A DNA stretch of 64,000 nucleotides from a virus, in IMG/VR virus record IMGVR_UViG_3300028558_000791, positions 62,001-126,000 of that record. One strand, given 5' to 3'. Position 1 is the first letter of the stretch, and every line of letters begins with the position of its first letter. Position numbers and translations under genes: made by a program. Below, in pieces: positions 756-58,963 of this stretch. Below the pieces are notes generated by a model. It worked only from the letters and a program-made list of their open reading frames with translations. It was not told the DNA's origin and did not search any database.

Positions 756-1676
756 ATGAATAAGATTGCAACATTAGTAGGATGTGCCATTGGAGATGCT
801 CTTGGCAATCCATTTGAGATGTGGAGTGTCCATGAGCCCAAGCTTAAAGAGTGGGATGGTCAGTTCAAAGCTGGCGGTACTTTCTGGGTAGGAGAGGCCG
901 GACAATATACCGATGATACCCTAATGAGCCTTGCTTTGTCATATTCTTTGCTTGAGAAGAGCGGATTCGATCAAGAGCACGTAGGTCTTCAGTACTTGGC
1001 TTGGATGGAGTCTGGTAACACTCGCGGTATTGGCGGGACTACTCACAGAGCTTTGACACGAATGAAGAACGGAGCATCCGCTCTTGAGAGTGGTGTTACC
1101 CATAACGATGGCAAGCCTGCCTCTGGTAATGGAACTGCTATGAGAGCCACACCAATTGGCCTCTGGTACCGTAAAGATATCGGCAAGTTGATTGAGGTTG
1201 CAATGGCGGACGCATCCATCACTCATAATTCATTTGAACCCAAGATGGGTTCTGTGGCGGTTGCACTAGGTACTGCATTGATTGCTAATGGTGCAACTGA
1301 CATGATTGAGGTCTTAGAAGAGGTAGCTGAGGTAATCTCTGAATCTATTGTCAAAGAGAAGTTAGTATTGGCCTTAACCCATCTAAAACTGGGTACCGAA
1401 CATTTTGAGGCCCTTGCGCAGATCGGCGTCAATGGCTATGTTCCAGAGACGGTTGGCGCGGCATTCTATTGTTTAGGGGCCAACGCAAACTATAGAGATA
1501 CTGTAGTGTTAGCTGTCAAGGCTGGCGGAGATACTGATACCACTGCGGCGATTGCTGGTGGCATGGCTGGTACTTTATACGGACTTGATGGTATTCCATT
1601 AGAATATAAGGATAAAGTAGAGAATTTCGAGTTATTGCAATCATTGACTGATGAACTTGTCAATAATGAGATATAA
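756..1676 (+). CDS. ADP-ribosylglycohydrolase (DraG family), copy 1
   Basis: A 306-residue protein of the ADP-ribosylglycohydrolase (DraG/ARH) family. Members hydrolyse ADP-ribose from modified amino acids using two bound Mg2+ ions. Hallmarks are visible in order: GCAIGDALGNPFE near the N-terminus, GQYTDDTLMSL around residues 49-59 (first metal-ligand cluster) and GGDTDTTAAIAGGMAG near residue 255 (second cluster). The length is normal for the family. A paralogue lies at 32806-33723, and the window also encodes a PARP, a macro-domain protein and a NADAR protein, so I infer a role in removing ADP-ribose. The ATG is 22 bases after tRNA-Ser(TGA), without a clear ribosome site. Substrate cannot be told from sequence. 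Confidence 0.9.
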   Translation: MNKIATLVGCAIGDALGNPFEMWSVHEPKLKEWDGQFKAGGTFWVGEAGQYTDDTLMSLALSYSLLEKSGFDQEHVGLQYLAWMESGNTRGIGGTTHRALTRMKNGASALESGVTHNDGKPASGNGTAMRATPIGLWYRKDIGKLIEVAMADASITHNSFEPKMGSVAVALGTALIANGATDMIEVLEEVAEVISESIVKEKLVLALTHLKLGTEHFEALAQIGVNGYVPETVGAAFYCLGANANYRDTVVLAVKAGGDTDTTAAIAGGMAGTLYGLDGIPLEYKDKVENFELLQSLTDELVNNEI

Positions 1677-27349: not shown

Positions 27350-27382
27350 TTCTTGACAATTAGATACACGGAGAGTGTTATT

Positions 27383-28390
27383 ATGGAACAATATCAGTAT
27401 TGCGTCGTTGTTGGGCGTTTCGAGCCATTTCATCTTGCACATCATGAGCTTATTCGAGAAGCTCTGAGTTTGGCAAAGACTGCATTAGTCATTATTGGGA
27501 GCGCCCACAAGGCCCGCACCATTCAAAATCCTTGGACCGCTGTTGAGCGAGAAGCAATGATTGTTGCCGCCCTCACAGAAGAGGAAAGGGCACGAGTCAA
27601 ATTCTTCCATGTTCGCGACTACTTCTACACCAACAACCGTTGGTTGAGTGAAGTTCAGCAGCTTATTGCTGAGGCAACTGATGGAATTGAAGATGACCAG
27701 ATTTGCAACATTGGTGAGCCTGTAAACGACTTCTACTTCCCTCAGTGGAAGTATTTCAAGATGCGCAACCTAGATAGGATGCCGCATGCAACGAAGGTTC
27801 GTGATTTGTATTTCACTCACGATGCTGCATATAAGACCCATCTGGACGCTCCAGTTGCGGAAATCTTAGAAAACTTCAAAACGACTCTTGCCTTCAAGAC
27901 TTTGAAGGATGAGTATGATCATATCCGAAACTACCGCTCTTCCTGGGATGGTGCTCCCTTTCCTCCAACTTTTGTTACGATTGACTGCATTGTTATCAAG
28001 AGTGGTCACGTATTGACGGTCCGTCGAAAAGGTAGTCCTGGTCGAGGTTTGATTGCTCTTCCTGGCGGATTCTTGAACCAAAAGGAAACAATCCTTGAAG
28101 GAGCCCTTCGAGAGTTAAAGGAAGAGACTGGTATCAAGGTTTCCAAAGAGGAGCTTGAGAAGTCTATTATTGAGCAGAAAGTGTTCGACTACCCAGAGCG
28201 CTCTCTACGAGGCCGCACAATTACACATGCCTTCCTAATCAATCTAGGTCAAGGCCCACTTCCTGTCGTCAAAGGAATGGATGATGCCGACAAGGCATGG
28301 TGGATGTCACTAAGTGATTTGGCAACTAGGGAATCGGAATTCTTCGAAGACCACTTCCACATCATCACACACTTCATCAACAAATTCTAA
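27383..28390 (+). CDS. nadM: NMN adenylyltransferase-Nudix bifunctional protein
   Basis: A 335-residue two-domain protein. Residues 1-175 form a NadM-type nucleotidyltransferase (VVGRFEPFHLAHHELI, the HxxH-like nucleotide site, and SAHKARTIQNPW), which joins NMN and ATP to give NAD+. The C-terminal domain (about 195-335) carries a full Nudix box, GGFLNQKETILEGALREL-KEETG, which in related bifunctional proteins hydrolyses ADP-ribose. The ATG at 27383 is chosen for the CGGAGAG site. Followed by NAMPT and NAD synthetase, it forms an NAD+ synthesis cluster. The ADP-ribose hydrolase activity would fit the ADP-ribosylation genes elsewhere in the window. Confidence 0.93.
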   Translation: MEQYQYCVVVGRFEPFHLAHHELIREALSLAKTALVIIGSAHKARTIQNPWTAVEREAMIVAALTEEERARVKFFHVRDYFYTNNRWLSEVQQLIAEATDGIEDDQICNIGEPVNDFYFPQWKYFKMRNLDRMPHATKVRDLYFTHDAAYKTHLDAPVAEILENFKTTLAFKTLKDEYDHIRNYRSSWDGAPFPPTFVTIDCIVIKSGHVLTVRRKGSPGRGLIALPGGFLNQKETILEGALRELKEETGIKVSKEELEKSIIEQKVFDYPERSLRGRTITHAFLINLGQGPLPVVKGMDDADKAWWMSLSDLATRESEFFEDHFHIITHFINKF

Positions 28391-28409: not shown

Positions 28410-28437
28410 GATTTCAAATTAATACGGAGAGTATATC

Positions 28438-29841
28438 ATGAATTACGAAGCAGAGAATTTTCTCATCGATACGGATAGTTACAAGGCCAGCCATTACCTT
28501 CAATATCCTGAAGGAACAACGAGTATGTTTAGCTACATCGAATCTCGTGGTGGTGATTACAAGAAGACGGTGTTCTTCGGCCTACAATACTACGTCAAGA
28601 AGTACCTTACTCACAGAGTGACTGTGGAAGAGGTTGAAGAGGCCAAGGAGTTCTTCGAAGCACACGGAGAGCCATTCAACTACGAAGGTTGGATGTATAT
28701 CGCTAAGGAACTTGGTGGTAAGTTGCCGGTTCGTATTCGAGCCGTTCCCGAGGGTAGCGTTGTTCCTACTCACAATATCTTAGTCAGTATCGAATCTACT
28801 GATCCCAAAGTCTTTTGGGTGGTATCCTGGATCGAAACAATGCTACTTAGGGTCTGGTATCCTATCAACGTTGCAACCAGGAGTCACAAAATTAGACAGA
28901 TCATCTCAGAAGCCTTGAGAATCTCGGCAGATGATCCGCAGGCAGAAATCAATTTCAAGCTGCACGATTTCGGAAGCAGAGGCGTTTCGTCTCAGGAATC
29001 GGCAATGATTGGTGGAGCCGCTCATTTGGTTAACTTCATGGGTTCCGATACTGTCGTTGGTGTGCGATGCGCCAACAAATTCTACAACTCTAAGATGGCT
29101 GGTTTCAGTATCCCTGCCATGGAGCACAGCTCAGTTACCTCTTGGGGCAGAGAGCACGAAGCTGATGCCTACCGCAACATGCTTCAGAAGACTGGAAAAC
29201 CGGGCGGATTAGTTGCTTGTGTAAGCGACTCTTACGATCTGTGGAATGCCTGTTCTAACCTGTGGGGCAAAGAACTGAAGGATGAAGTGATCAAGTCGGG
29301 AGCTACTGTAGTTATCCGTCCTGACTCTGGAGATCCTTCCAGTGTTGTCCTCCGCACTGCACAATTGCTTGAAGAAAAGTTTGGAGTTACTGTCAATAGC
29401 AAAGGCTTCAAGGTTCTCAACAATGTACGCATTATCCAGGGAGACGGTATCAATGAAGACTCAATTCAAGAGATCCTTAACAATTTGCTGGATCATACTT
29501 ACAGCGCCAGCAATATTGCTTTTGGTATGGGCGGCGCTCTGCTACAGCAACATAATCGCGATACACTGAAGTTCGCCATGAAGTGTAGCCACATCTATCG
29601 TACGGTAGATGGTAAGGAAGTTTCAGTGGATGTCTTCAAGGATCCTGTTACTGACCACGGTAAAGTTAGTAAGGCTGGCCGTTTGGATTTGATTCGTGAC
29701 ATGTCTGGCAATTGGTCCACTGTCACTCTTGGAGACAAAGATCATCACCTGTTGACGGTGATGGATCTTGTCTATGAGAATGGTGAGGTTCTCAAGGAAT
29801 ATACGTTTGACGAAATTAGAAACCGTGCGAAGGGAGTGTAA
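28438..29841 (+). CDS. nadV: Nicotinamide phosphoribosyltransferase
   Basis: A 467-residue NAMPT/NadV, which makes NMN from nicotinamide and PRPP, the first step of nicotinamide salvage. Family signatures are clear: DSYKASHYLQYPEGT at the start, the HDFGSRGVSSQESA loop, GSDTVVG, SMEHS-like AMEHSSVTSWG, RPDSGDP (phosphate-binding) and FGMGGALLQ. Length is close to animal and bacterial homologues. It starts 47 bases after nadM with a CGGAGAG site. With NadM it rebuilds NAD+ from the nicotinamide released by NAD-cleaving enzymes. Confidence 0.96.
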   Translation: MNYEAENFLIDTDSYKASHYLQYPEGTTSMFSYIESRGGDYKKTVFFGLQYYVKKYLTHRVTVEEVEEAKEFFEAHGEPFNYEGWMYIAKELGGKLPVRIRAVPEGSVVPTHNILVSIESTDPKVFWVVSWIETMLLRVWYPINVATRSHKIRQIISEALRISADDPQAEINFKLHDFGSRGVSSQESAMIGGAAHLVNFMGSDTVVGVRCANKFYNSKMAGFSIPAMEHSSVTSWGREHEADAYRNMLQKTGKPGGLVACVSDSYDLWNACSNLWGKELKDEVIKSGATVVIRPDSGDPSSVVLRTAQLLEEKFGVTVNSKGFKVLNNVRIIQGDGINEDSIQEILNNLLDHTYSASNIAFGMGGALLQQHNRDTLKFAMKCSHIYRTVDGKEVSVDVFKDPVTDHGKVSKAGRLDLIRDMSGNWSTVTLGDKDHHLLTVMDLVYENGEVLKEYTFDEIRNRAKGV

Positions 29842-29842
29842 C

Positions 29843-30742
29843 ATGATTAAAGACTATCTAAAAACTGCAATTCATATCGAAACTTGGATCAAAAATTACG
29901 CTGCCAAAGCAGGTGTTTCTACATTAGTTCTGGGCCTTTCTGGCGGAATTGACTCTGCTGTCTGTGCCTTACTCATCAAACGAACTGGAATTCCTTTGGT
30001 GTGTGTTAACATGCCATGTCATAGTTCCTCTTCTGCTTATGACCGTGCTAAGGCATTTGCTGATGAGAATGACATTAAGCTGATGAAGGTTGATTTGTCA
30101 GCGGCCCATGCAGTCATTGCTGATCAACTAACTGTCCAGGCACCATTTGATTGGCAAAGCAAAGGTTCTGCTGGCGGACTTCGTTCTTGCCTCAGAGCAC
30201 CAACTCTATCCTATGTTGCTCATGCCACCAACGGAATCATCGTTGGTACTGGCAATCGTAGTGAAGACCGTATCACCCGTTACTTTCAGAAGTTTGGTGA
30301 TGGTTGCGTAGACTTCTCACCAATTGCTGACTTGTGGAAGTCGGAAGTGTATGCCCTGTTCAAGTTCCTTGCTGAGGAAAACAATGGTGTCATGGGTCCT
30401 GGTGCACAGGCTATCTATGATGCTAAGCCAAGTGCTGACCTTTGGGGAGCTGATTCTGGTCAAGAAGATGAGAAAGAGCTTGGCATCTCCTATGATGAGA
30501 TTGAGTGGGCTGATCGTGAAGATGTTGACTCACAAGGTGAAGGTGCTTGGGGTCAGCCTATGCCAGGAATTATCTTCCTAGATTCTCACCCCGAGGAACA
30601 TGAACGTTGGGGCTCCTATACTCCACGTCAGCAAGAAGTCATTAAGACCCTTCATCGTATGGAGAAGACCTCTCGTCATAAGGCTAATCCAGCTATGCCA
30701 GTCTGTAATGTGCATGACCCTAAACTTGAACTTTGCGAGTAA
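29843..30742 (+). CDS. nadE: NAD synthetase
   Basis: A 299-residue ammonia-dependent NAD synthetase, which amidates nicotinate adenine dinucleotide (NaAD) to NAD+. The P-loop LGLSGGIDSAV (residues 32-42) of the N-type ATP pyrophosphatase family, GTGNRSED and FSPIADLWKSEVYAL are clear. There is no glutaminase domain. The ATG at 29843 follows one base after the NAMPT stop, with AAGGGAG inside the previous gene. The substrate comes from the nicotinic acid route, so the phage covers both the amidated (NAMPT-NadM) and the deamidated path. Confidence 0.95.
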   Translation: MIKDYLKTAIHIETWIKNYAAKAGVSTLVLGLSGGIDSAVCALLIKRTGIPLVCVNMPCHSSSSAYDRAKAFADENDIKLMKVDLSAAHAVIADQLTVQAPFDWQSKGSAGGLRSCLRAPTLSYVAHATNGIIVGTGNRSEDRITRYFQKFGDGCVDFSPIADLWKSEVYALFKFLAEENNGVMGPGAQAIYDAKPSADLWGADSGQEDEKELGISYDEIEWADREDVDSQGEGAWGQPMPGIIFLDSHPEEHERWGSYTPRQQEVIKTLHRMEKTSRHKANPAMPVCNVHDPKLELCE

Positions 30743-32540: not shown

Positions 32541-32813
32541 ATGATAAGTATTGACGAAGAGATTCAAAGAATAATTCACTTCTTGAGCCAAGGAATCGAT
32601 TATACGCTCACTATAGGGATTCTTAGTATTACCCCGATCTGTTCAGATGAGGCTTGCTGGGTGGTGAGTTGGCAAGAACAGATTGATGATACTATTCTAG
32701 AATGCCAGAAGGATTTTATATCCTTGTTCGATGCTGCACAGTATTTTGTCGAGAAAAGACGCTATATGTGCATTGGATCTGATTTTGATACATTGGAGAA
32801 TGATAATGAGTAG
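32541..32813 (+). CDS. Hypothetical protein, 90 aa
   Basis: A 90-residue acidic protein, one base after the previous stop. No motif. It overlaps the second ADP-ribosylglycohydrolase gene by eight bases. Confidence 0.65.
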   Translation: MISIDEEIQRIIHFLSQGIDYTLTIGILSITPICSDEACWVVSWQEQIDDTILECQKDFISLFDAAQYFVEKRRYMCIGSDFDTLENDNE

Positions 32814-33723
32814 CGTATTACTTGGTACTGCAATTGGTGATGCCTTGGGTGTTCCATTTGAAACTAAACTTGCTAACTATGAGTTGTTGGTTGCTTGGGA
32901 TGGTGAAACCTATTTAGGTAGCGAGCATCACGGCCTCAAACCTGGACAATACTCTGATGATACTCAGATGAGTCTGATGGTTGCCGAATCTCTTATCGAG
33001 AACCATGGATTCAATCCCGATGACTTAGCCGAACGCTATGTTGAATGGATTACATCTGGCAGGGCTAGAGGTTATGGTAAAACAACCCTATTAGCCATTC
33101 AAAATTTGGTCAATGGTAAACACTGGAGCGAATCTGGTATTGCTGGTTCCTATGGAAATGGAACCGCTATGCGAGCTGCTCCATTTGGAGTTTACTTCCG
33201 CAATGATTTACAGTCCCTAATCAGTATTTGTAAGATGGATAGTTCTATCACCCACGCTTCTGATGAGGCTGAAGCCGGTTCTATTGCTATTGGGTATGCA
33301 GCAGCCTATGCGGTCAATGGCGAGAAGGAAGGGTTACTAGATGAATTGTGGCGAATTCTGCCGGACAGCAAGGTAAAAAGTATCATTTACAGCCTTGACT
33401 CCTTGATTGATTCGCCTTACATTACACCGGAACAAGCGCTCCGTGTGATTGGAACTAAGGCAGATGTTCGACAGACTGCTCCAGCCGCATTGTATTGTTT
33501 CCTAAAGTTTGAGACCTATGCAGAGGCAATACAAGCCGCCATTAGAGCTGGTGGAGATACAGATACCACGGCTGCCATTGTAGGAGCTTTGTTTGCTGCC
33601 AGAGATGGTACGTTGAATATCTCTGATGCTTGGATTAGTGGTGTAGAGGAATCTAGTAGGCTCATGGAGCTAGATAGTCAACTTTACAACCGATCAAACG
33701 ATTCGTTTCTGAAAAGAGGATAA
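32806..33723 (+). CDS. ADP-ribosylglycohydrolase (DraG family), copy 2
   Basis: A 305-residue paralogue of the protein at 756. Shared hallmarks are GTAIGDALGVPFE at the N-terminus, GQYSDDTQMSL (first metal cluster), SGNGTAMR-like YGNGTAMRAAPFG in the middle and GGDTDTTAAIVGAL near residue 250 (second metal cluster). The start at 32806 is inside the end of the previous gene. Two divergent DraG copies in one window suggest different substrates or partners, for example protein-Arg versus other ADP-ribose links. Confidence 0.9.
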   Translation: MSSVLLGTAIGDALGVPFETKLANYELLVAWDGETYLGSEHHGLKPGQYSDDTQMSLMVAESLIENHGFNPDDLAERYVEWITSGRARGYGKTTLLAIQNLVNGKHWSESGIAGSYGNGTAMRAAPFGVYFRNDLQSLISICKMDSSITHASDEAEAGSIAIGYAAAYAVNGEKEGLLDELWRILPDSKVKSIIYSLDSLIDSPYITPEQALRVIGTKADVRQTAPAALYCFLKFETYAEAIQAAIRAGGDTDTTAAIVGALFAARDGTLNISDAWISGVEESSRLMELDSQLYNRSNDSFLKRG

Positions 33724-43742: not shown

Positions 43743-45628
<1,886 letters not shown>

Positions 45629-45629
<1 letters not shown>

Positions 45630-48950: not shown

Positions 48951-50447
48951 ATGAGTCTGCCTGTCATTAAGGACCAGTCCGTCATTGATAACATCAAAGT
49001 TGTGGAATCCGTCAAGCGATGGACACTTAACTTTACCGACATTGTCAATAACAACAATAAGTTTTACAACCTGGAAGTTGTTAAGTCATCTGACGACAAA
49101 TTCTATCTGTACACCGTTTACGGTCGAGTTGGTGCCGGTGGCGCCAAAGAGTACAGGTCAGCATCTTCTCTCAACGAAGCAGAGAAGGAAGCCGAAGGCA
49201 TCATCAAGTCCAAGAACAAGAAGGGCTATGTTGAAGTCAAGCTTGCTAAAGCTGACATCGGTTCCGAGCTTGGTAAGGCCAAGGTCGATACCTCTGTGAC
49301 CCTTGAGTCTTTGAAGAAGGCTGGCGTGAAGGTTACAGAAGAGCCTCAAGCTGCCAGCAAACTGCATGTTGAAGTGCAAGACCTTGTTCGCACTTGGTTC
49401 GGCGTTACTCAAGAGTTCCTTGAGTTGAACCTTGACACCAAGAAGTGCCCACTCGGCCAGTTGTCTCTCGATCAAATCGACAAGGCCAAGCAGATTCTTG
49501 AAGAGGCTCGTAATATCGTTCATGCTAAGAAGCCTGACAAGGATGAGTTGAACAAGTTGACGAGTTCCTATTACTCCAACATTCCTCACGTTCTTGGTTC
49601 TCGAATCAATGCGGATTTGCTTCGTTTTGATGATGACCCCAAGATTGACAAAGCGTTTGATATTCTTGACGTCTTTGCTGACGCCAAGAACGTTCAGGCC
49701 GTTATTTCCAAGAAGAGCGCGGTTGATTCGCAATATGCGACTCTGAATGCTGGTTTGGAATACGTTGATCCAAAGGATCCGACCTTCAAGTGGCTTGAGG
49801 CAATGGTTCTTGAAACCCGCGCCAGCAACCACACCGGCTTGGGCAAGCTGAAGATTCATAAGGTCTTCAAGCTGGCTCGTAACAATGAAGACAAATACTT
49901 CATGGAGACAGCCGAAAAGATTGCTAAGGAATGCGGTAAGTTTGTTCCTTCTCCGGTCTATTCTAATTTGGTCAAGAGGCGCCCTGATCTCTCCAAGGAG
50001 ATGCAGGAGCTTTACCAGAGGGCTAACATTCTCCCTGGTTGGCACGGTACTCGCCGTGCAAACATGATTGGTATCACTACCAAGGGACTTTTGATTCGTC
50101 CTTCTGGAGTTATCCATGCGGGTTCTATGTATGGTGACGGTATTTACTGGGCCGTTCATAGTACTAAGTCCATCAATTACTGTGACGTCCGTGGTTCTCA
50201 CTGGGCTCAGGGTAATAACAAGACCGCGTATCTCTTCTTAGGAGACGTGGCTTTTGGTAACCAGGAGATGGCTGGTGGTTCTCGTATGTATACCAAGAAG
50301 AACATCGCGCCTAACCATTCTGTGTGGGCAAAGTCCGGTGGTAACTCTGGATTGTACAATGACGAACTGATTACCTACACCGCTTCTGGTGCGGGTCAGC
50401 AGCACGCCCTTCGCTACATTATCGAATTTGAGACGCAAGCCAAATGA
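48951..50447 (+). CDS. PARP-type ADP-ribosyltransferase with WGR domain
   Basis: A 498-residue poly(ADP-ribose) polymerase homologue with three parts. First, a WGR domain (YTVYGRVGAGG, about residues 54-64, DNA-sensing in PARP1-3). Second, a helical regulatory domain (CPLGQLSLDQIDKA, matching the PLGKLS start of the PARP regulatory domain). Third, a catalytic domain with the full H-Y-E triad: His365 in GWHGTR, Tyr399 in YGDGIYWA and Glu472 in YNDELITY. The Glu suggests polymer or at least ester-linked ADP-ribosylation. NAD+ is the donor. GAGG lies before the ATG. PARPs are common in eukaryotes and rare in phages. Targets are unknown. Confidence 0.95.
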   Translation: MSLPVIKDQSVIDNIKVVESVKRWTLNFTDIVNNNNKFYNLEVVKSSDDKFYLYTVYGRVGAGGAKEYRSASSLNEAEKEAEGIIKSKNKKGYVEVKLAKADIGSELGKAKVDTSVTLESLKKAGVKVTEEPQAASKLHVEVQDLVRTWFGVTQEFLELNLDTKKCPLGQLSLDQIDKAKQILEEARNIVHAKKPDKDELNKLTSSYYSNIPHVLGSRINADLLRFDDDPKIDKAFDILDVFADAKNVQAVISKKSAVDSQYATLNAGLEYVDPKDPTFKWLEAMVLETRASNHTGLGKLKIHKVFKLARNNEDKYFMETAEKIAKECGKFVPSPVYSNLVKRRPDLSKEMQELYQRANILPGWHGTRRANMIGITTKGLLIRPSGVIHAGSMYGDGIYWAVHSTKSINYCDVRGSHWAQGNNKTAYLFLGDVAFGNQEMAGGSRMYTKKNIAPNHSVWAKSGGNSGLYNDELITYTASGAGQQHALRYIIEFETQAK

Positions 50448-50908
50448 ACATTTTCGTTTTAGACACTGACGTAAAACGGGCCGCTCAGGCGCATGTTGAC
50501 AAGCATTGTGTCAAAATGGTTCTTGAAACTACGCAACTACTTAATAACGCGCTTATTACTGGGTCCTCAAATTATGACCCAGTATATAAGCAGACGCATA
50601 AAAATCATCCTTGTAGTATTTGGGCTGCGGAATCTATTGATAATTTCAATTGGCTAACCAATCTTGGCTTGGCCCTTTGTGAGGAGTATACGTTTCGCTA
50701 CTCAAAGATTCATAAGTGTCAGCCAATTATTCAACGGTTCTCATCACTAGCTAACGATTTACCTAAAATTGGTTTGACACCATTTCAACTTTGTATGCCA
50801 GACCAATATAAAGTTGATGATGCTGTTGAATCTTATCGGAACTACTATCGTGGCGATAAAGCCTACATTGCAAAATGGTCTAAACGTAATCAACCAAGCT
50901 GGTGGTAA
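50444..50908 (+). CDS. Conserved phage protein, 154 aa
   Basis: A 154-residue protein with the start NIFVLDTDVKRAAQAHVDKHCVKM in pieces: IFVLDTD, AAQAHVDKH and KMVLETTQLL. This is a family I recall from many large phages, function unproven. The C-terminus has PxxYRNYYRGDKAYIAKW, an Arg/Lys- and Tyr-rich end. ATGA overlap with the PARP gene implies co-expression. Confidence 0.75.
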   Translation: MNIFVLDTDVKRAAQAHVDKHCVKMVLETTQLLNNALITGSSNYDPVYKQTHKNHPCSIWAAESIDNFNWLTNLGLALCEEYTFRYSKIHKCQPIIQRFSSLANDLPKIGLTPFQLCMPDQYKVDDAVESYRNYYRGDKAYIAKWSKRNQPSWW

Positions 50909-50909
50909 A

Positions 50910-51065
50910 ATGTTTTATGTTGTATATGAAGTGAACGGTTTTGATGGTGTTCAAAAGGCAGGCCCATATTCGCAGGCTGATGTTCAATATCAGCGGGATG
51001 ATATCGCAGGCTTCGAAGGCGTGGTGAACGTCAAGGTTGTTCCTGCTGAGGAAATGGACGAATGA
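50910..51065 (+). CDS. Hypothetical protein, 51 aa
   Basis: A 51-residue beta-type protein (MFYVVYEVNGFDGVQ). The start at 50910 follows the previous stop by one base. It overlaps the radical SAM gene by four bases. Not recognised. Confidence 0.55.
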   Translation: MFYVVYEVNGFDGVQKAGPYSQADVQYQRDDIAGFEGVVNVKVVPAEEMDE

Positions 51066-52330
51066 AAATCGGATTGCTAACCTTTCCGCGACTGACCAAC
51101 ACTTTTTCAGTTGGTCGGCCGACACTGCTGGCCCAAAAGCTTGAGCCATCTGTGTTGTACCTCTCCCCTTCTCAAGGGGAGTTGGTTTTTCTAGAGGACA
51201 ACAAACCTCGCGCTGATATTGATCTCTATCTTTGCTCAGTGTATACTCGTGGTTACAATGAGTTTGTTCGTTTCTCCCAAGAGGTTGGACGAGATAAAAT
51301 CATTGCTGGCGGCTATCATCCCACGGCTGAACCGTCCGATACCTTCAAACACGCTCATAAAGTGGTTGTGGGTTACTGCGACAACATCGATCAAATCTTG
51401 GATGAGAAACCCGGAATCCATCGTGGTTCCTTTGGGTTCACTCGTATGCGCCGGGACTTGATTGATATGACTACTATGAAGCAAGTCTACCCAGACATCT
51501 ATCCTCATGATATCTCTGGGTCTATGGTTTCCTCTGTTGGGTGTCCATATGATTGTGACTTCTGTTCCACTCCACAAATGTCTGGGCGTAAGATGCGCAC
51601 TGCCACTTTGGATTACGTAGCAGAAGAGATTGATGATCTTGTTAAGCGTGGAGCTACTACCGTTTTCATTCGAGATGAAAGTTTTGCCACTCATCCGCTA
51701 GTGAAAGAAGTCGCCCCACTTTTCAAAGACAAGTTCAAAGTTCTTTACTCATTTGGAACCAGCGGGGTATATGCTAAGCATCCAGAGATTCTCGCGACTC
51801 TCAAAGATAGCGGATGGCACTCTCTCAACATCGGCCTGGAAGATGTTGGTGTCAAATACAAGAAGAACATCAACATCAAGCTTGGTGTAGAGAACATTCA
51901 TCGTAATGGTTTGCAACACGTGATGTCATTCATTGTCAATGACGATGGCAAGACTGAAGATGAAGCCCGCGCTAATTACAAAGCTTTGTATGAAGCGTTT
52001 GTGGACTTGAAACCATTACAAGTATGTGCTAACTTTCTAATGCCTTTCCCCGGCACTAAGCTATGGGAAGGTTACAAGAGCCGTGTAACTACTGCGGATT
52101 TCGATCGTTTCGATTCCAAAACCCCAGTCTTTACTCATGGCGCTTTTGGTGAGTGGCACAAACGAATGTTAGTGTCAGTTCAGCTTAAGTATTACTTGAG
52201 CGAAATCTACAACAAGCAGGTGCGTCCATTTGATTGTGGCGATCTACTTCATCTTAGGATGAATGAGTTGGCCAAAGAATTCAATTTGGATGATGTGTCT
52301 TGGGATCAATTGTTGGAGCTGAAGGTATGA
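51062..52330 (+). CDS. B12-type radical SAM protein
   Basis: A 422-residue radical SAM enzyme. The cluster motif CPYDCDFC (CxxxCxxC, residues about 161-168) binds the 4Fe-4S cluster. The N-terminal 130 residues have the order of a cobalamin-binding Rossmann domain (IDLYLCSVYTRGYNE, IIAGGYHPTAEP), without a clear D-x-H-x-x-G. Such proteins methylate or rearrange unactivated carbons. The substrate is not predictable. It is coupled to the macro-domain gene by ATGA. Radical SAM genes of this type are uncommon in phages. Confidence 0.88.
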   Translation: MKIGLLTFPRLTNTFSVGRPTLLAQKLEPSVLYLSPSQGELVFLEDNKPRADIDLYLCSVYTRGYNEFVRFSQEVGRDKIIAGGYHPTAEPSDTFKHAHKVVVGYCDNIDQILDEKPGIHRGSFGFTRMRRDLIDMTTMKQVYPDIYPHDISGSMVSSVGCPYDCDFCSTPQMSGRKMRTATLDYVAEEIDDLVKRGATTVFIRDESFATHPLVKEVAPLFKDKFKVLYSFGTSGVYAKHPEILATLKDSGWHSLNIGLEDVGVKYKKNINIKLGVENIHRNGLQHVMSFIVNDDGKTEDEARANYKALYEAFVDLKPLQVCANFLMPFPGTKLWEGYKSRVTTADFDRFDSKTPVFTHGAFGEWHKRMLVSVQLKYYLSEIYNKQVRPFDCGDLLHLRMNELAKEFNLDDVSWDQLLELKV

Positions 52331-52806
52331 TTGAGATTGTAACTGGAGATTTGTTCGAAGCAACAGAGAAATATCTTTGTCATCAGTGCAACTGCGTAAC
52401 CAATAAGGCCGCGCATCTAGCCGCTGATATGTTCGAGAAGTTCCCTCACTCCGACATCTATACTCCACGTACTGAGCCAGACCAGCCTGGTCATATTATT
52501 ATTCGTGGTGATGGCAAGGCCGAACGTTATGTGGTTGCAATGCTTGGTCAATATTACCCAGGTCGCTCCAAGTACCCCAAATCAACTTTAGACGGCCTCC
52601 CGATTCGCGAGAAATACTTTTACCGCTGCCTGCTCCGCCTGGCTCAAGTGCCCGACCTGGAAAGTGTAGCATTCCCCTGGCGCGTTGGCTGCGGCGCTGC
52701 TGGTGGGGACTGGGAACATTACCTTGGAACCATCACCAATTTCGCTCAATACGTTGGGGAGAAGGGTGTTAAAGTTCGCATTTACCGCCGTGATGGAGAC
52801 GAATAA
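52327..52806 (+). CDS. Macro-domain protein
   Basis: A 159-residue macro domain, the fold that binds or hydrolyses ADP-ribose. IEIVTGDLFEATEKY is the first strand and loop; CHQCNCVTNKAAHLAADMF is the substrate-binding Asn/Ala-rich loop; VVAMLGQYYPG and WRVGCGAAGGDWEHY carry the second Gly-rich phosphate loop. Related phage and bacterial proteins remove ADP-ribose from proteins or nucleic acids. It follows the radical SAM gene and precedes NADAR, so this block handles ADP-ribose. Confidence 0.9.
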   Translation: MIEIVTGDLFEATEKYLCHQCNCVTNKAAHLAADMFEKFPHSDIYTPRTEPDQPGHIIIRGDGKAERYVVAMLGQYYPGRSKYPKSTLDGLPIREKYFYRCLLRLAQVPDLESVAFPWRVGCGAAGGDWEHYLGTITNFAQYVGEKGVKVRIYRRDGDE

Positions 52807-53006
52807 TGTCTGATGATAAGAAGTCCTATTTGGACTATGATTTTGCAACGTTTAAAGAACAGATGGAAGAAGCTACTGCTATTCTGAAGAAGATGAACGA
52901 AGCTGCTAACTATATGCGTTGGCAGTATGAAATGGATGAAACCATGAAAGAGTTTGAGAAAGAAGTTCAGGATGCAAGTGGATGGCTGTCAAGCTGGTGC
53001 GGGTGA
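52806..53006 (+). CDS. Hypothetical helical protein, 66 aa
   Basis: A 66-residue charged helix-forming protein between the macro-domain and NADAR genes; starts in a TAATG junction. Not recognised. Confidence 0.6.
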   Translation: MSDDKKSYLDYDFATFKEQMEEATAILKKMNEAANYMRWQYEMDETMKEFEKEVQDASGWLSSWCG

Positions 53007-53010
53007 AACA

Positions 53011-53442
53011 ATGGCAATCAAATTCTATAAAGTAAAAGAGCCTTACGGCTTCTGTAGCAACTATTACAAAAGCCGATTCTTCGTCTTTGGCCGCTGGTGG
53101 AACTGGAGTGAAGCTCCGTACCAGGCAGCCAAGACTAGCGTTCAGTCTGAGATTGATGCAATTCATCAAGCTACCAAGGCCAATGATACTCGTCTTTTAG
53201 GGCAGAAAGTAACCATGCGTCCCGATTGGGATGAGATGAAGTACTCTGTTATGAAAGAAGTTTGCATGGCCAAGTTTCTTCAGCATCCAGATTTGCGAAA
53301 GCAACTTATCGCTTCTGGCGATGAAGAGTTGATTGAAGACTCTCCAGTTGACTATTACTGGGGTTGTGGGGCCGATGGTTCCGGTAAGAACATGCTCGGT
53401 AAATTGCTCATGGAACTTCGAGAGGAGTTGAAAGGTGAGTAA
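53011..53442 (+). CDS. NADAR (YbiA/DUF1768) family protein
   Basis: A 143-residue NADAR protein. FYKVKEPYGFCSNYYKS at the start, the W-x-EAPYQAAKT helix, AKFLQHPDLRKQLIASGDEELIED and YYWGCGADGSGKNMLGKLLMELR follow the family closely. NADAR proteins are N-glycosidases; some remove ADP-ribose from guanine as antitoxins of DarT-like systems. The start at 53011 lies five bases after the previous stop. It is the third type of ADP-ribose-handling protein in the window. Confidence 0.92.
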   Translation: MAIKFYKVKEPYGFCSNYYKSRFFVFGRWWNWSEAPYQAAKTSVQSEIDAIHQATKANDTRLLGQKVTMRPDWDEMKYSVMKEVCMAKFLQHPDLRKQLIASGDEELIEDSPVDYYWGCGADGSGKNMLGKLLMELREELKGE

Positions 53443-53770
53443 GAAAGAACTAGTAATCTGGTTTAACCAGAATGGTGATATGACAGATCAGGGCGGGTAT
53501 AGTCCCCAGAATACTTATGGTTTCAAATCTGAAATTGCAAAAGATTTCGATGATCAAATGGAGTATGAAAACCTCTATGAGTTTCGTAAGAGGTCTGGCC
53601 GAGTCTATTTTAAATCGACAACGACGGGTCGACAATACACCATGTACCTTGACGATTTCAATAATATCATAAAAGAAAAACGATTTAATAACAATCGAAT
53701 CCAAGGAACTTTTCATTTCATAAAGAGAAGTTCTGGCCAAGCTATTCAATTAATTCCGGAGAAACCATGA
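53435..53770 (+). CDS. Hypothetical protein, tandem paralogue A
   Basis: A 111-residue protein from GTG (GAGGAG upstream). The C-terminal half, YFKSTTTGRQYTMYLDDF then NNRIQGTFHFIKR, matches the next gene. Beta-rich, function unknown. Confidence 0.65.
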   Translation: MSKKELVIWFNQNGDMTDQGGYSPQNTYGFKSEIAKDFDDQMEYENLYEFRKRSGRVYFKSTTTGRQYTMYLDDFNNIIKEKRFNNNRIQGTFHFIKRSSGQAIQLIPEKP

Positions 53771-54096
53771 AAGCTAAAGGTGTTTTCAAAGTTGCTTTTG
53801 ACAGTACAACTGGAGATTTGCTACATCGGTTGTATGGCTGGCAAATCAATCAAGGTAACTTCAAAGAAGAAGACAACCACGTCTTTTCTGATAAATTGGA
53901 ATACCATGATTATGGCGGCTCCCACATTTTCTTCAAGTCATTAGTAACTGGTAGGAAATACCATATGTTCCTCTCTGATTTTCATACCATGATGAAAGCC
54001 AAGAAGATGCAAGATAACATCATCGAAGGCGAATTCACTTTTTGCAAAAAGGGGCGAGTGCAGGGATTCAAAATGATTCTCCCCAAAGCACCATAA
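53767..54096 (+). CDS. Hypothetical protein, tandem paralogue B
   Basis: A 109-residue paralogue of the previous protein (FFKSLVTGRKYHMFLSDF and IIEGEFTFCKKG), linked by ATGA. A recent duplication is likely. Function unknown. Confidence 0.65.
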   Translation: MKAKGVFKVAFDSTTGDLLHRLYGWQINQGNFKEEDNHVFSDKLEYHDYGGSHIFFKSLVTGRKYHMFLSDFHTMMKAKKMQDNIIEGEFTFCKKGRVQGFKMILPKAP

Positions 54097-54110
54097 TTTT
54101 TACGCCGCCC

Positions 54111-54138
54111 TTGACTCTAATTTTTCAAAATATAGGTT
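54111..54138 (+). promoter_or_regulatory. Promoter TTGACT-N16-TAGGTT
   Basis: TTGACT (54111-54116), 16-base spacer, TAGGTT (54133-54138), directly ahead of the kinase-like gene. Same layout as the others of the set. Confidence 0.6.
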
Positions 54139-54145
54139 ACTTGAG

Positions 54146-54643
54146 ATGCCAGCTTATGACAAAGATTCGCCGGAGTATAAGTTCGAGAAGAAAACCAAGT
54201 TGAAGCTTGGTAAGTTACTCAAAGGCGGTAATGGTAAAATCTACAGCCTCAAAGATTATCCTAAGCGGGTAGTCAAGATTGATGATACTCTTGATGCTGA
54301 TGATCGTCAGCTTGTAATGAGAATCATTAGGAATCTAAAGAAGTCTAGGAATTCTGTAGTAGTCAAGATTCACAAAGCGGGTATTATCCGTGGCGGGTAT
54401 CACTACTATGTGATGGATAAACTTAAGCCTCTGAAAGATAAGTGGAATACTGGTGATCGACTCAGCCAGTATATTTTGGGACAGGCAGTCCCGAATTTTG
54501 AGTCACCTAAAGTAAAGTCTTTTGTTAAAGGAGTGATTGCTCTCAACAACCGTTATTACTATGCCGATTTGCATGGCGGTAACATTATGTTGACTGAAGA
54601 TAAGTCACTCAAGCTCGTGGATTTAGAATCATTTACCTACTAA
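54146..54643 (+). CDS. Mini protein kinase-like protein
   Basis: A 165-residue protein with reduced eukaryotic-type kinase features: LKGGNGKIYSL (Gly-loop), RVVKIDD (the ATP-anchoring Lys), a hinge region YHYYVMDKLKPL, YADLHGGNIML (HGD/HxD-type catalytic loop with D and N) and KLVDLESF in place of the DFG loop. It lacks most of the C-lobe. It could phosphorylate a protein or small molecule, or be a pseudokinase. Only seven bases separate the promoter -10 from the ATG. Confidence 0.72.
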   Translation: MPAYDKDSPEYKFEKKTKLKLGKLLKGGNGKIYSLKDYPKRVVKIDDTLDADDRQLVMRIIRNLKKSRNSVVVKIHKAGIIRGGYHYYVMDKLKPLKDKWNTGDRLSQYILGQAVPNFESPKVKSFVKGVIALNNRYYYADLHGGNIMLTEDKSLKLVDLESFTY

Positions 54644-54655
54644 GGAGAAATAGCA

Positions 54656-55162
54656 ATGTCTAATTTGGAAGATACAGTTCGTTCGGTTGTGCAAGATTTC
54701 ATCAGTCGTGAAGTTCTCTTTACGGCGTTGGATGTCAGTAATGCAGTCAAAACTGCTGCGCCTCATGTCAGGCACCGTGAAGTGAGAGATGTGGTTCGTG
54801 CCATGTTCTCTTCGGATATTGAGACCCAGGGTTGGGCTCGTACTCCTATTTCCGTTACCTTGGGTGATGGTACTACGGCAGAAGCTTTGCTGTACCATCC
54901 TCTAACTGACTCCTGGGATTTGGATAACAAGTACAGCGTTCAACAGCGCGTGACCACTTCTGCTCGTCCAGTTTCTGTTGCACAGGCTGCTGCCAGTGTT
55001 ACTTCAACGGTTACTCTCCCAGCTTCTTTGCCAGTTCCTGTGGTTGCGGCTCCATTACCGACTGTAACGCCGGCCGTGGTTCCTACCGCTCCATTGCCAA
55101 CTGCTCGTAGCCTTTGGGACCAGATGTTCCAAGTTCAACCATCTTTGTTCCCTCGTAAGTAA
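54656..55162 (+). CDS. Hypothetical protein with Pro/Ala-rich linker
   Basis: A 168-residue protein. The N-terminal 80 residues could be a winged-helix-like domain (AVKTAAPHVRHREVRDVVRAMF). Residues 105-150 are low-complexity Pro/Ala/Val/Thr, and the last 15 (LWDQMFQVQPSLFPRK) look like a short docking peptide. AAGGAG lies upstream. Function unknown. Confidence 0.65.
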   Translation: MSNLEDTVRSVVQDFISREVLFTALDVSNAVKTAAPHVRHREVRDVVRAMFSSDIETQGWARTPISVTLGDGTTAEALLYHPLTDSWDLDNKYSVQQRVTTSARPVSVAQAAASVTSTVTLPASLPVPVVAAPLPTVTPAVVPTAPLPTARSLWDQMFQVQPSLFPRK

Positions 55163-55178
55163 TTACTAAGGACAAGTT

Positions 55179-55979
55179 ATGCAACGAAACATAATTCTGT
55201 ATCGCGGTTCGGATTTTGAAAAAGAGGAATTAGATTCAGCGCTTCAAGTATTTGAATGCACTGATCGAAGGCCGGAAATCCAAGCTGGCGATCTTGTTAT
55301 CGGAAGATATTCACTTTGGCCGTTCTATGTGGATCAAGCTAAAGACATTGAGTATGTTGGCGCCAAGCTGATTAACAATTATCAGCAGTACCGTTACATT
55401 GCCGATTTGCAGAATTATGTAATGGACCTTCGAGAACTGACTCCTCGGACCTGGAGAGACATCACGGATCTGCCAGATAAGGGTCAGTTCATCTTGAAGG
55501 GTGAGACTAACTCTCGTAAATCCAATTGGAAACGAGATATGTTCGCACCCGACAAGAAGACAGCAATTGAGATTTATGCTCGCCTGATGGATGATAGTCT
55601 AATCGGGCAGCAAAACATTTATATTCGCCGGTACGAACCAATGGTTACGTACATGGAAGGTATCAATGGAATTCCAATTACTAAAGAGTTTAGATTCTTT
55701 GTCGCCTATGGACAGATTCTAAGTGGAGGTTATTACTGGCAAAACTATGTAGATGAGTTGCCAGAAGTCCCCAACCCAGATGAAGTTCCTCGTGAATTCT
55801 TGAATGAAGTTATTGTGCGAGTGGGCAATCAATCCAATTTCTATACCATTGACGTGGGACAATCCATCTCTGGCAAATGGTTTGTAGTTGAACTGAATGA
55901 AGGACAGCAATCAGGGTTATCCTGTAACGATCCTTTTACTATGTACAAAAATCTAGACAAGGCCATTAGAAGCCAATGA
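55179..55979 (+). CDS. ATP-grasp-like protein, second copy
   Basis: A 266-residue protein resembling small phage ATP-grasp proteins. FILKGETNSRKSNW (nucleotide-binding Lys), IYIRRYEPMVTYMEG, KEFRFFVAYGQILSGGYYW and WFVVELNEGQQSGLS (the D/E-x-N metal loop) are in the expected order. It is a better match than the protein at 7700. Substrate unknown. It overlaps the next gene by four bases. Confidence 0.75.
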   Translation: MQRNIILYRGSDFEKEELDSALQVFECTDRRPEIQAGDLVIGRYSLWPFYVDQAKDIEYVGAKLINNYQQYRYIADLQNYVMDLRELTPRTWRDITDLPDKGQFILKGETNSRKSNWKRDMFAPDKKTAIEIYARLMDDSLIGQQNIYIRRYEPMVTYMEGINGIPITKEFRFFVAYGQILSGGYYWQNYVDELPEVPNPDEVPREFLNEVIVRVGNQSNFYTIDVGQSISGKWFVVELNEGQQSGLSCNDPFTMYKNLDKAIRSQ

Positions 55980-56602
55980 AAGAGTTCAACTCTATTCAAG
56001 AGCTGTGGGATTACTGCGCGTACTGTCCCATTTGTACACGGAATTGTCGAGAGGTAATTGTCTCAGTAGGGCCAGATAAAGTTTTTATTCTAGTGTCCTC
56101 TGAAAAGAAAGACAACAATCTATTTATGCAATGTACCTACAAGAATAAGCGCTCTATCTATACGGTTGAATATAATCTCAACTGTACTGATAATACATTT
56201 CGTGTAGAAGTACCTAACGTAGTAGAATTGCCGCTTGGTGAAACTGCCAAGCCCGAAAAGATTAAAGAAGCCTATTTCTTCTTCTTTGTTGAAGGTATGT
56301 GTAATCAGTGCAATTGCGCTACAGCACATAGTTTAGACTTGGAGCTAGATATAGTGGATAGACGGATTTCTAACATCGGACTAGAGCGTGAGAGTTTTTA
56401 TCTTTTTGAAGGTAAAGACAAATTTCACGTGACTCCCATTCATGACCGAAACGTCATGTTGGTGAGCCGCTGCTATGTCGACGATGAGCAACTTGGCTTC
56501 TCCGAAAGTGATAAAACAATCGAGTTGCCTTTAGTAAAACTTGATCTTTCTGATCAGGAAAAAGTCACTAATAAAATTAAGACTCTAATTCTATTTAGTT
56601 GA
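55976..56602 (+). CDS. Hypothetical protein with two Cys clusters
   Basis: A 208-residue protein. CAYCPICTRNC near residue 15 and CNQCNC near 114 suggest metal binding; the rest is beta-rich and may be two similar halves, each with a Cys cluster. It ends LILFS. Not recognised. Confidence 0.65.
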   Translation: MKEFNSIQELWDYCAYCPICTRNCREVIVSVGPDKVFILVSSEKKDNNLFMQCTYKNKRSIYTVEYNLNCTDNTFRVEVPNVVELPLGETAKPEKIKEAYFFFFVEGMCNQCNCATAHSLDLELDIVDRRISNIGLERESFYLFEGKDKFHVTPIHDRNVMLVSRCYVDDEQLGFSESDKTIELPLVKLDLSDQEKVTNKIKTLILFS

Positions 56603-56611
56603 GGGTATCCC

Positions 56612-56815
56612 ATGTCCACTTTCAGAGAAGCCAGCCAAGTCCGTCTTGTATTGAAAATGAAACTATCCATGTATGCATGGTATAGCTCCAGTACTGTCGT
56701 CGCAGTTGACGATGGCTTTGGCGTAATTATTGGCGTCAAACATATGGACAATGGCATCCGCAAACTGGTTCCGCCGGTTGTAGATGGCGTATCAGTGAAA
56801 GCGGAAGTAGAATGA
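56612..56815 (+). CDS. Hypothetical protein, 67 aa
   Basis: A 67-residue protein, half helical, half beta (VVAVDDGFGVIIGV). GAGGG precedes the ATG. ATGA overlap with the phosphoesterase gene. Not recognised. Confidence 0.6.
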   Translation: MSTFREASQVRLVLKMKLSMYAWYSSSTVVAVDDGFGVIIGVKHMDNGIRKLVPPVVDGVSVKAEVE

Positions 56816-57525
56816 AAATCAAACGAATCTCAGATCAAACTGCTAGGAATTTCAAAATGCGACTTTGTCATGTGTCAGATACTCACGGTAGATTCCCTCG
56901 TCTCTATGGACGATACGATGCCGTTATCCACACTGGCGATCTGTTTCCTAACAGCCATCATGTGTTTTCTGGGAACAAGAATCAAGAGATGGCATTCCAA
57001 CTCAAGTGGCTTCGTGAGAGTGCGGAAGAGATCAAGTCTTGGCTTCAGGGCCATCCCTTGCTCTATGTTCCTGGCAATCATGACTTCTTGCACTCCAGTC
57101 TAATGGAGTTCGAGTTGCGCCAGATTGGTTTGGAAGCATTCGATCTGACGGATAAGACGCTCAACTTTCGAGGGGTAAACTTCTATGGTTTCCCTTACGT
57201 ACCAGAAATCAATGGTATGTGGAACTATGAGCGCCGGCTCCCGGAGATGCAGAAGGAAGTCGACAAGATGGTTGAAATTGTCAACAAAGAATATGTCGAC
57301 GTTTTGGCTTGCCATGCTCCACCCTATAAAATGCTTGACCTCACGATGGGTAATGAGGTTGTAGGTTGTCAGGTAATGTCTACGGCTCTAGATTACAAAA
57401 TCAGCAGAGATATGATGCCTTCTTATTTCTTGTGCGGTCACATCCATGAAGCAAATGGAATGTCTGTGCGTAATGGGATGATGGTTAGCAACGCTGCTAC
57501 CACGCGTCATATCATCGAGGTCTAA
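56812..57525 (+). CDS. Calcineurin-like metallophosphoesterase, copy 2
   Basis: A 237-residue metallophosphoesterase. CHVSDTHGR (D-x-H), VIHTGDLF (GD), YVPGNHDF (GNHD), LACHAPPY (H) and LCGHIHEANG (GHxH) are present. It differs from copy 1 and is closer to the YfcE/239AB-like group. Start 56812 is used; an ATG at 56857 would also leave the fold whole. Substrate unknown. Confidence 0.9.
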   Translation: MKIKRISDQTARNFKMRLCHVSDTHGRFPRLYGRYDAVIHTGDLFPNSHHVFSGNKNQEMAFQLKWLRESAEEIKSWLQGHPLLYVPGNHDFLHSSLMEFELRQIGLEAFDLTDKTLNFRGVNFYGFPYVPEINGMWNYERRLPEMQKEVDKMVEIVNKEYVDVLACHAPPYKMLDLTMGNEVVGCQVMSTALDYKISRDMMPSYFLCGHIHEANGMSVRNGMMVSNAATTRHIIEV

Positions 57526-57526
57526 T

Positions 57527-57997
57527 ATGAAAGTCAAACCGAAAGAAGTATTAGTGAATCTCCCAGTGGCTCTATTGTTCGATGAGCCCTGGGAGATTGC
57601 CTCCTTTGCCGCTAACATCAATGCTATCCTTCATGGTAAGGTTAGATTGAAGGCTGAGGATTTGGGCGTACTCGGCGGAAGGTATGTAGGATTGTTTTAC
57701 CTACAGCGTAACGGAGAATCCCAACAGATTCATGATGAGTTCATGCGACTCATTGAAGAAGAGGAAGTTAGCGAGCACGACCATTCTTTTGTCCCTGGCC
57801 CCACTTCTGAGCCTGAGGAAGAATGGATTGATGATGCTCATCCAAGAGATGAAGATAATTATGCTCATGGTCTTTGCAAAGATTGTGACGAATACTCTAT
57901 GCTTCATATCAAAGGAGAGGATCATTGTCGCTGCGGAGGCGAAATGGTCAATGGCGTATGTAAGCTCTTAGGAAAGATTAGAAAGACCAATGCGTAA
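57527..57997 (+). CDS. Hypothetical protein with C-terminal zinc cluster
   Basis: A 156-residue protein. The N-terminal 60 residues are alpha/beta (VALLFDEPWEIASFAANINAI); the middle is acidic with His; the end has CKDCDEY, CRCGG and a final Cys (a zinc site). Not recognised. Confidence 0.6.
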   Translation: MKVKPKEVLVNLPVALLFDEPWEIASFAANINAILHGKVRLKAEDLGVLGGRYVGLFYLQRNGESQQIHDEFMRLIEEEEVSEHDHSFVPGPTSEPEEEWIDDAHPRDEDNYAHGLCKDCDEYSMLHIKGEDHCRCGGEMVNGVCKLLGKIRKTNA

Positions 57998-58496
57998 ACA
58001 TCAAGTAAGATTCTATAGCCCAGGAACCCTATTCTCTGAATCGTCAGCCCATGATATCGATAGCTGGGATATTCCTAAAGCAGTCGAGATGGCCGAGAAG
58101 ATTTTGGAAAGATATAATGCGAAACCTTATGGTTTTGTGTTTGAAACTTTTTTGGTGGCTGACGATGTGCCAGATGGAGAAGGTGGAACTCTTCGAGTCG
58201 AATCTAAACGAGTGGCTCAATCTGGAGTCCATTTCCTTGGTGGTAGGTTGGAGACTTATGATGAAGTAGTTGCTCGTAATGACGAGAAGGAAAGTATTCT
58301 TCGAAGCAATATGCGAGGCAATGAACAATGGATTGTGTGCATCAACACTAATAGCTGGCGTACTACCATGCCTTTTGATGAGAAAGATTGCATTGTGGAT
58401 GCTAGGGGATTTGTTACCGAACGAGGTGACCTTCCTAAATATGTAGCCTATCGAGCAGAACAGCTTGCCAAGCGTAAGGCTGAGTTAGGTTACTAA
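57990..58496 (+). CDS. Conserved hypothetical protein, 168 aa
   Basis: A 168-residue protein (VRFYSPGTLFSE at the start, NAKPYGFVFET, SNMRGNEQWIVCINTNSWRTT). I recall similar uncharacterised proteins from phages and bacteria. It overlaps its neighbours on both sides (TAATG at the end). Function unknown. Confidence 0.65.
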   Translation: MRKHQVRFYSPGTLFSESSAHDIDSWDIPKAVEMAEKILERYNAKPYGFVFETFLVADDVPDGEGGTLRVESKRVAQSGVHFLGGRLETYDEVVARNDEKESILRSNMRGNEQWIVCINTNSWRTTMPFDEKDCIVDARGFVTERGDLPKYVAYRAEQLAKRKAELGY

Positions 58497-58963
58497 TGAT
58501 AGTGGCATTCACAGGTCATAGGCCCGACAAACTCGGTGGGTACAAGCTTCCCAATGACACTTACATTCGAGTTTGTCAAAAGATTGATACTGCTCTCAAA
58601 GAACTCAAACCAAAGAAGATAATCACTGGTATGGCTTTAGGGGTAGACCAGTGGGCAGCTATGATAGCCCATAAGCTCGGTATTCCCTTCCTAGCGGCGA
58701 TTCCGTTTGAAGGACAGGAGAATGCGTGGCCAGAAGCTAGTAGACGCACCTACCACCTTTTACGCAAGCTAGCGGCCGAAGAAGTCATTGTCAGTCAGGG
58801 TGGGTACTCGGCTGACAAGATGCAGGTTCGCAATATCTGGATGGTCGATAACTGTACTAACCTCATCGCAGTATGGGATGGTACTAAGGGCGGTACAGGT
58901 AATTGTGTAGAATATGCTAAGTCGGTGAATAGGGAAATTTATTACATTGACCCGCGAGCTTGA
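58496..58963 (+). CDS. SLOG-fold protein, YpsA/DUF1273-like
   Basis: A 155-residue protein of the SLOG superfamily. IVAFTGHRPDKLGG at the start and ITGMALGVDQWAA, IPFEGQENAWP and KGGTGNCVEYAKS match the YpsA/DUF1273 group. SLOG proteins bind nucleotide ligands, and YpsA-type members are thought to recognise NAD+ or ADP-ribose derivatives. In this window it would fit as a sensor or handler of such a molecule (inference). Confidence 0.85.
   Translation: MIVAFTGHRPDKLGGYKLPNDTYIRVCQKIDTALKELKPKKIITGMALGVDQWAAMIAHKLGIPFLAAIPFEGQENAWPEASRRTYHLLRKLAAEEVIVSQGGYSADKMQVRNIWMVDNCTNLIAVWDGTKGGTGNCVEYAKSVNREIYYIDPRA

Follow-up and report, generated by a model that had tools for sequence, protein, structure and literature searches.

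A clade-conserved set of NAD+ and ADP-ribose genes around a WGR-PARP in huge phages

Results

ADP-ribose genes in a 64-kb stretch of a huge phage genome

We analyzed a stretch of 64,000 nucleotides (referred to here as the window) that comprises bases 62001-126000 of a 480,838-base IMG/VR virus record, IMGVR_UViG_3300028558_000791, which derives from a bacterial virus in a metagenome. The window carries genes for a putative poly(ADP-ribose) polymerase (PARP), a macrodomain protein, a NADAR protein, a SLOG protein, and two DraG-type ADP-ribosylglycohydrolases, together with genes for an NAD+-dependent DNA ligase and for the supply of nicotinamide adenine dinucleotide (NAD+), all of them on the + strand. 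A sequence-only reading of this DNA had described the PARP, macrodomain, NADAR, SLOG, and DraG genes as a complete set for writing, erasing, and handling ADP-ribose. Each of those family assignments held up when examined by the analyses described below; the NAD+ supply genes and the gene for the NAD+-dependent ligase, however, had been overlooked.

The putative writer (48951..50447; 498 aa) has a WGR-PARP_reg-PARP architecture, in which PARP_reg is the helical regulatory domain (HD), and all three domains scored over the Pfam cut-off (PARP, 1.9e-19; PARP_reg, 3.1e-19; WGR, 1.4e-17). Residues H365, Y399, and E472 sit in the motifs WHGTRR, GDGIYW, and NDELITY and occupy the positions of the H-Y-E triad of PARP1. 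Among 28 aligned family members the His and the Glu are found in every sequence and the Tyr in 25, with Ile in the other three. Moreover, comparison with PDB sequences indicates that the phage protein resembles human PARP1, PARP2, and PARP3 along its full length. The AlphaFold model of the protein is poor (predicted local distance difference test, pLDDT, of 62), yet it matches DNA-bound PARP1/2, which we take as support for the sequence result only. By its WGR, helical regulatory, and ADP-ribosyltransferase domains and its H-Y-E triad, the protein is predicted to be of the DNA-dependent PARP1/2/3 type. Cellular relatives in GTDB genomes are few and distant, the best being in a metagenome-assembled genome of the Myxococcaceae (27%). 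(Note that second or tandem PARP genes occur in some huge phages, at L062:9173-12308 and at 16667-17161 of record G011.)

The macrodomain protein (ATG at 52327; 52327..52806; 159 aa) is too divergent to have been matched by Pfam, but matches phrog_335 (1.3e-12). An AlphaFold model built from an alignment of 20 sequences had a pLDDT of 85 and a predicted template modelling score of 0.84, and the best Foldseek matches of this model are macrodomains, namely those of DarG, YmdB, Poa1p, and alphaviruses, with template modelling scores of approximately 0.65-0.71 and E-values down to 1.7e-7. The GCGAAGG loop, which corresponds to the ADP-ribose loop, is kept in most homologues. Thus, by predicted fold and by its ADP-ribose loop, the protein is identified as a macrodomain; several hydrolase subclasses (DarG, TARG1 or Poa1p-like) match it about equally in Foldseek, and Pfam assigns none. 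A second macrodomain-family protein is encoded in the same phage genome, outside the window (G000:C1:156092-156613; an open reading frame in L108).

The two DraG genes (756..1676 and 32731..33723) encode proteins with strong Pfam matches to PF03747 (2.7e-68 and 5.2e-70, respectively) and with the metal-binding DDT and GDTDT motifs of the DraG/ARH family; in the first protein the metal motifs DDT and GGDTDTTAAI are intact, and the second is ARH3/MJ1187-like. The second gene, placed at 32806 by the sequence-only reading, probably starts downstream of 32731, because the proteins of relatives are approximately 20 residues shorter at the N-terminus. The SLOG protein (58496..58963; 155 aa) exceeds the cut-off for the YpsA family, PF06908 (4.2e-14), which places it in the YpsA clade, and resembles YpsA of Bacillus (2nx2).

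The NADAR protein is of the YbiA type

The NADAR protein (ATG at 53011; 53011..53442; 143 aa) was recognized by Pfam with an E-value of 4.2e-34, and residues E34, K41, E109, D114, and W117 are invariant in 20 of 20 aligned sequences. NADAR proteins fall into groups split by one residue, which is Glu in the YbiA group, Asp in the DarT1-linked group, and His in the phage gp30.3 group (PMC11543638, PMC11125620). The catalytic residues E34, K41, and E109 agree with those of the YbiA family, and the window protein differs from gp30.3 in having Glu rather than His. The catalytic Glu in the last strand (E109), together with the E34/K41 pair, would assign it to the YbiA subfamily.

The sequence-only reading had raised the prospect that the NADAR and macrodomain proteins act as antitoxins of DNA ADP-ribosylation, a claim that finds no support as it was stated. 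When compared to the NADAR of DarT1-NADAR toxin-antitoxin pairs, the phage protein has Glu instead of Asp and is without the N-terminal extension; moreover, no DarT was found in any of the 12 records searched, this phage included. These three features speak against a DarT1-associated NADAR antitoxin, and a pairing with a cognate DarT is unsupported in the phage or its clade. By analogy with its family, hydrolysis of guanine-linked ADP-ribose by the NADAR protein in vitro is plausible, which would not imply protection from DarT1, since NADAR activity in vitro alone need not confer such protection (PMC11543638, PMC11125620). The set may protect the phage from ADP-ribosylating toxins of the host. 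We also considered repair of RNA by a combination of KptA and the macrodomain protein. KptA (PF01885) was absent from the phage's own genome and from the clade records and, among the records searched, was found only in the huge phage LR756500 (see below), so that this candidate finds no support. A search with PADLOC gave weak generic matches only (NADAR to PDC-M42C, SLOG to ShosA, and one kinase-like gene).

NAD+ supply genes lie beside a DraG gene

Approximately 2 kb upstream of the second DraG gene are three genes (27353-30742) that would be central to an NAD+/ADP-ribose economy of the phage. The first encodes a fusion of a NadM-type nicotinamide mononucleotide adenylyltransferase to a Nudix domain (27353..28390; NUDIX, 2e-18; CTP_transf_like, 2.9e-9), the second a NadV/NAMPT nicotinamide phosphoribosyltransferase (28438..29841; NAPRTase, 2.5e-57; NAMPT_N, 2.1e-32), and the third a NadE-type NAD+ synthetase (29768..30742; NAD_synthase, 8.9e-38), whose listed start overlaps nadV and whose true start may be later. 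An NAMPT-type NadV beside a NadM-Nudix protein is the arrangement of NadV-NadM salvage of NAD+. The NARP1 pathway (Adps and Namat) likewise uses an NAMPT-family enzyme for NAD+ supply; the phage NadV, however, has GMGGALLQQHNRD where Namat carries the aromatic GSx..TRD selectivity-clamp motif (PMC12774641), and it adjoins NadM and NadE. We reject an identity with NARP1/Namat because the aromatic motif is absent. For this reason, and because NadV is linked to NadM and NadE, salvage of the NadV-NadM type that uses phosphoribosyl pyrophosphate is the best reading of these genes.

Conservation of the block in related phages

At the DNA level, a search of public phages gave no match. Two scans of IMG/VR yielded 71 PARP loci, approximately 30 of which are clade relatives (46-90% identity). 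Gene persistence was tallied over 31 loci, with the denominator for each gene being the loci that reach far enough. The order LigA-PARP-macro-NADAR-SLOG is retained across approximately 30 of these related huge-phage loci, where LigA persists in 25/26, the macrodomain gene in 25/27, NADAR in 22/27, and SLOG in 20/23. The intervening genes, by contrast, turn over. Between PARP and the macrodomain gene lie a gene for a pyrimidine-dimer-glycosylase-like protein (50444..50908, + strand), present in 11/28 relatives, and an accessory gene for a radical-SAM protein (51062..52330, + strand), present in 4/28; an R2K ATP-grasp gene occurs in 7/24 and a kinase-like gene in 5/24. In relatives the genes of the block are intact, and their rate of nonsynonymous substitution (dN) is far below the synonymous rate (dS; often saturated), as expected under purifying selection. 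The gene set is thus not a product of chance. The distances between orthologues are correlated for macro and NADAR (r = 0.65), LigA and macro (0.60), PARP and LigA (0.56), and macro and SLOG (0.54).

DraG genes, one or two per record, were found in 10 of the 11 clade records that span 150 kb or more; the sole record without one, G011, has its PARP approximately 5 kb from the record start. In most clade records, PARP is preceded by the counterpart of the DraG gene at 32731 at a distance of approximately 12-18 kb, and by that of the gene at 756 at approximately 37-49 kb, orthology having been verified by sequence for G001-G003 and assigned by position for the other records. NadV and DraG are separated by approximately 0.8-3.1 kb in eight clade records. 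(Note that record G012 has a second NADAR between NadE and DraG.) PARP, macrodomain, NADAR, and DraG genes recur together in the clade, so that the set passes the co-occurrence test that the sequence-only reading had itself proposed.

The persistence of LigA (43755..45629, with OB, HhH, and BRCT domains), whose gene is 3.3 kb upstream of PARP, bears on an alternative explanation, namely that the block is a phage DNA repair unit in which PARP would detect nicks in the DNA of the phage and cooperate with the adjacent NAD+ ligase and, where present, with the dimer glycosylase. PARP1-3 act in single-strand break repair. In keeping with this idea, the WGR and helical domains are as in DNA-bound PARP1/2, the ligase precedes PARP in nearly all relatives, LigA is near PARP in four distant loci (L058, L069, L072, and L082), and in Cellulophaga phage phi17:2 a DNA ligase gene is two genes from PARP. 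However, some of the four distant loci are related and, given how common LigA is, their number is not clearly above chance; the dimer glycosylase is present in only a minority of relatives; and no further repair genes were recognized within the block. We consider a repair unit unlikely.

PARP loci of distant phages

Two unrelated, uncultured huge phages, LR756511 (595 kb) and LR756500 (462 kb), each carry PARP, DraG, NADAR, and macrodomain genes, a NAPRTase-family gene, and an NAD synthase gene, although when compared to the window phage their proteins are distant and their gene order is different. LR756511 has a DraG gene on the same strand as PARP and approximately 4.3 kb away from it, and in LR756500 a DraG gene is 0.8 kb, or one gene, from the NAPRTase-family gene. 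Since these DraG proteins are only 27-33% identical to those of the window, the linkages of DraG to PARP and of DraG to NAD+ genes probably arose separately.

The PARPs of Xanthomonas phage XacN1 (BBA65562.1), Klebsiella phages FBKp34 and 05F01, and Stenotrophomonas phage RAS14 have the WGR, regulatory, and PARP domains in common with the window PARP, to which they are 26-37% identical, with four such matches covering 93% of the query; the FBKp34 record already annotates all three domains. Unlike the window phage, these phages have no adjoining macro-NADAR-SLOG cassette in the stretches examined, although their genomes do contain NADAR and macrodomain matches. In XacN1, a DUF4343 gene is found near PARP.

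Other genes in the window

The window also encodes elongation factors G (5377-7470) and Ts (15210-16229), a single-chain phenylalanyl-tRNA synthetase with a class II core and an FDX-ACB domain (40789-41937), a TyrRS/TrpRS-type enzyme (62308-63270), PTH2 (at 37590), and Thg1 (at 39701), and it contains 25 tRNA genes (window 1-64000), some as isoacceptor clusters. (A class II core with an FDX-ACB domain is the arrangement of the mitochondrial phenylalanyl-tRNA synthetase.) Two R2K-clade ATP-grasp proteins (7700-8458 and 55179-55979) and two Kelch-repeat proteins (12784-13689, - strand, and 36306-37553, + strand) are encoded as well.

Discussion

The gene set is real and is conserved in related huge phages. 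We favor, with about even confidence, the reading that it constitutes a phage-run NAD+/ADP-ribose economy of this clade. In favor of this reading are the domain and fold identities, the near-invariant triad of PARP, the persistence of the block genes amid the turnover of their neighbours, the correlated distances between orthologues, and the proximity of DraG to NAD+ genes in the clade and to PARP or NAD+ genes in the two unrelated phages. From what is known of the families concerned, NadV and NadM would rebuild NAD+ during infection, with NadE serving the deamidated route, and LigA and the PARP1/2/3-like enzyme would consume it. The WGR domain of PARP may bind DNA ends or nicks, upon which the helical domain would release autoinhibition and the enzyme would ADP-ribosylate proteins or DNA of the host or the phage. 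The two DraG/ARH3-like hydrolases and the macrodomain protein would remove ADP-ribose from macromolecules, and the macrodomain, NADAR, and SLOG proteins may bind or cleave the ADP-ribose products, whether soluble or linked to bases, of the host's NADase and ADP-ribosylation defences. The analysis demonstrates the identities of the genes, their catalytic residues, the purifying selection on them, and their order; we infer the targets, the timing, and the operation of the parts as one circuit.

Several observations weigh against this reading. Two genes with no assigned function and not known to be connected with ADP-ribose, 48305-48613 and 54656-55162, are as persistent as LigA and PARP (30/31 and 25/25 loci, respectively). 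Conservation alone is therefore no proof of an ADP-ribose unit, as it would also follow from shared synteny. Among the members of the block, NADAR is retained least well; several relatives have lost it or carry a truncated copy, and it is therefore not obligatory: in L003, a relative whose PARP is 87% identical, it is cut to a 65-aa remnant (L003:12750-12944) and the SLOG match contains a stop, and no match to NADAR was found anywhere in G002, G007, and G008. The distance correlations of PARP with NADAR and with SLOG are marginal (p approximately 0.05). Furthermore, distant phage PARPs are mostly without macrodomain, NADAR, or SLOG-type neighbours within 10 kb, and the co-occurrence of Macro, NADAR, and SLOG is widespread among large phages (Iyer 2022, PMC9503650).

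The persistence of the two unassigned genes would be expected if a 480-kb genome had loosely accumulated NAD+ and ADP-ribose genes, their order being the general synteny of the clade. Against this explanation, the surrounding accessory genes are readily lost while the ADP-ribose genes stay, and the linkages of DraG to PARP and to NAD+ genes recur in unrelated phages. We regard loose accumulation as very unlikely.

The frequent absence of NADAR where PARP remains is in keeping with a counter-defence kit that shares no circuit, in which the macrodomain, NADAR, SLOG, Nudix, and NAD+ salvage proteins would each oppose a different NAD+- or ADP-ribose-based defence of the host and PARP would be a separate enzyme of host takeover. 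Iyer 2022 (PMC9503650) argues that NAD+ is refilled by salvage and that the main targets of phage Macro, NADAR, SLOG, and Nudix proteins are soluble derivatives of ADP-ribose, which favors such a kit, as does the commonness of the families in jumbo phages reported there (macro 56%, NADAR 48%, NadV 33%, NAD+ ligase 32%, and SLOG 31%). On the other hand, the order PARP-macro-NADAR is fixed across most of the clade, and DraG (listed as ARG and given there for only approximately 5% of jumbo phages) is present twice in the window phage and, in unrelated phages, has PARP or NAD+ genes close by. Such a kit is a possibility that we hold to be somewhat unlikely when set beside an NAD+/ADP-ribose economy of the clade.

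Most parts of the set were already known from big phages. Iyer 2021 (PMC7824862) noted that a small number of jumbo phages encode PARPs and named BBA65562.1, which is the PARP of XacN1. Iyer 2022 (PMC9503650) describes Macro, NADAR, SLOG, Nudix, ARG, NadV/NadM, and NAD+ ligase for large phages and reports that the first four of these co-occur above chance in DNA viruses and large phages. The view of the sequence-only reading that no phage system with the whole set had been described was therefore an overstatement, as the sets of LR756511 and LR756500 and the annotation of FBKp34 also indicate. In the passages of Iyer 2022 that were examined, the network has no WGR-PARP embedded with macrodomain and NADAR genes and no phage with two DraGs, and the terms WGR and NadE do not occur; moreover, we found no literature that names WGR and poly ADP-ribose polymerase together with bacteriophage. 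What appears not to have been described is a clade-wide block that encloses a WGR-PARP, the presence of two DraGs, and the linkage of DraG to NAD+ genes.

An NAD+/ADP-ribose economy of the clade could extend to a cycle of poly(ADP-ribosyl)ation that is gated by DNA breaks and whose writer, erasers, and NAD+ supply are all encoded by the virus and maintained by the whole clade as a syntenic unit. Such a cycle, which we put forward tentatively and consider rather doubtful, might mark DNA-associated proteins of the phage or host for the control of replication or might pre-empt ADP-ribose-based immunity. Were such a cycle to exist, a bacterial virus would have a poly(ADP-ribose) pathway comparable in its parts to the DNA-damage response of eukaryotes, and what phage PARPs do could be tested directly. 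The clade cassette and the linkages of DraG to NAD+ genes provide specific gene pairs in which to look for an ability to counter NADase, Thoeris, and DarTG defences.

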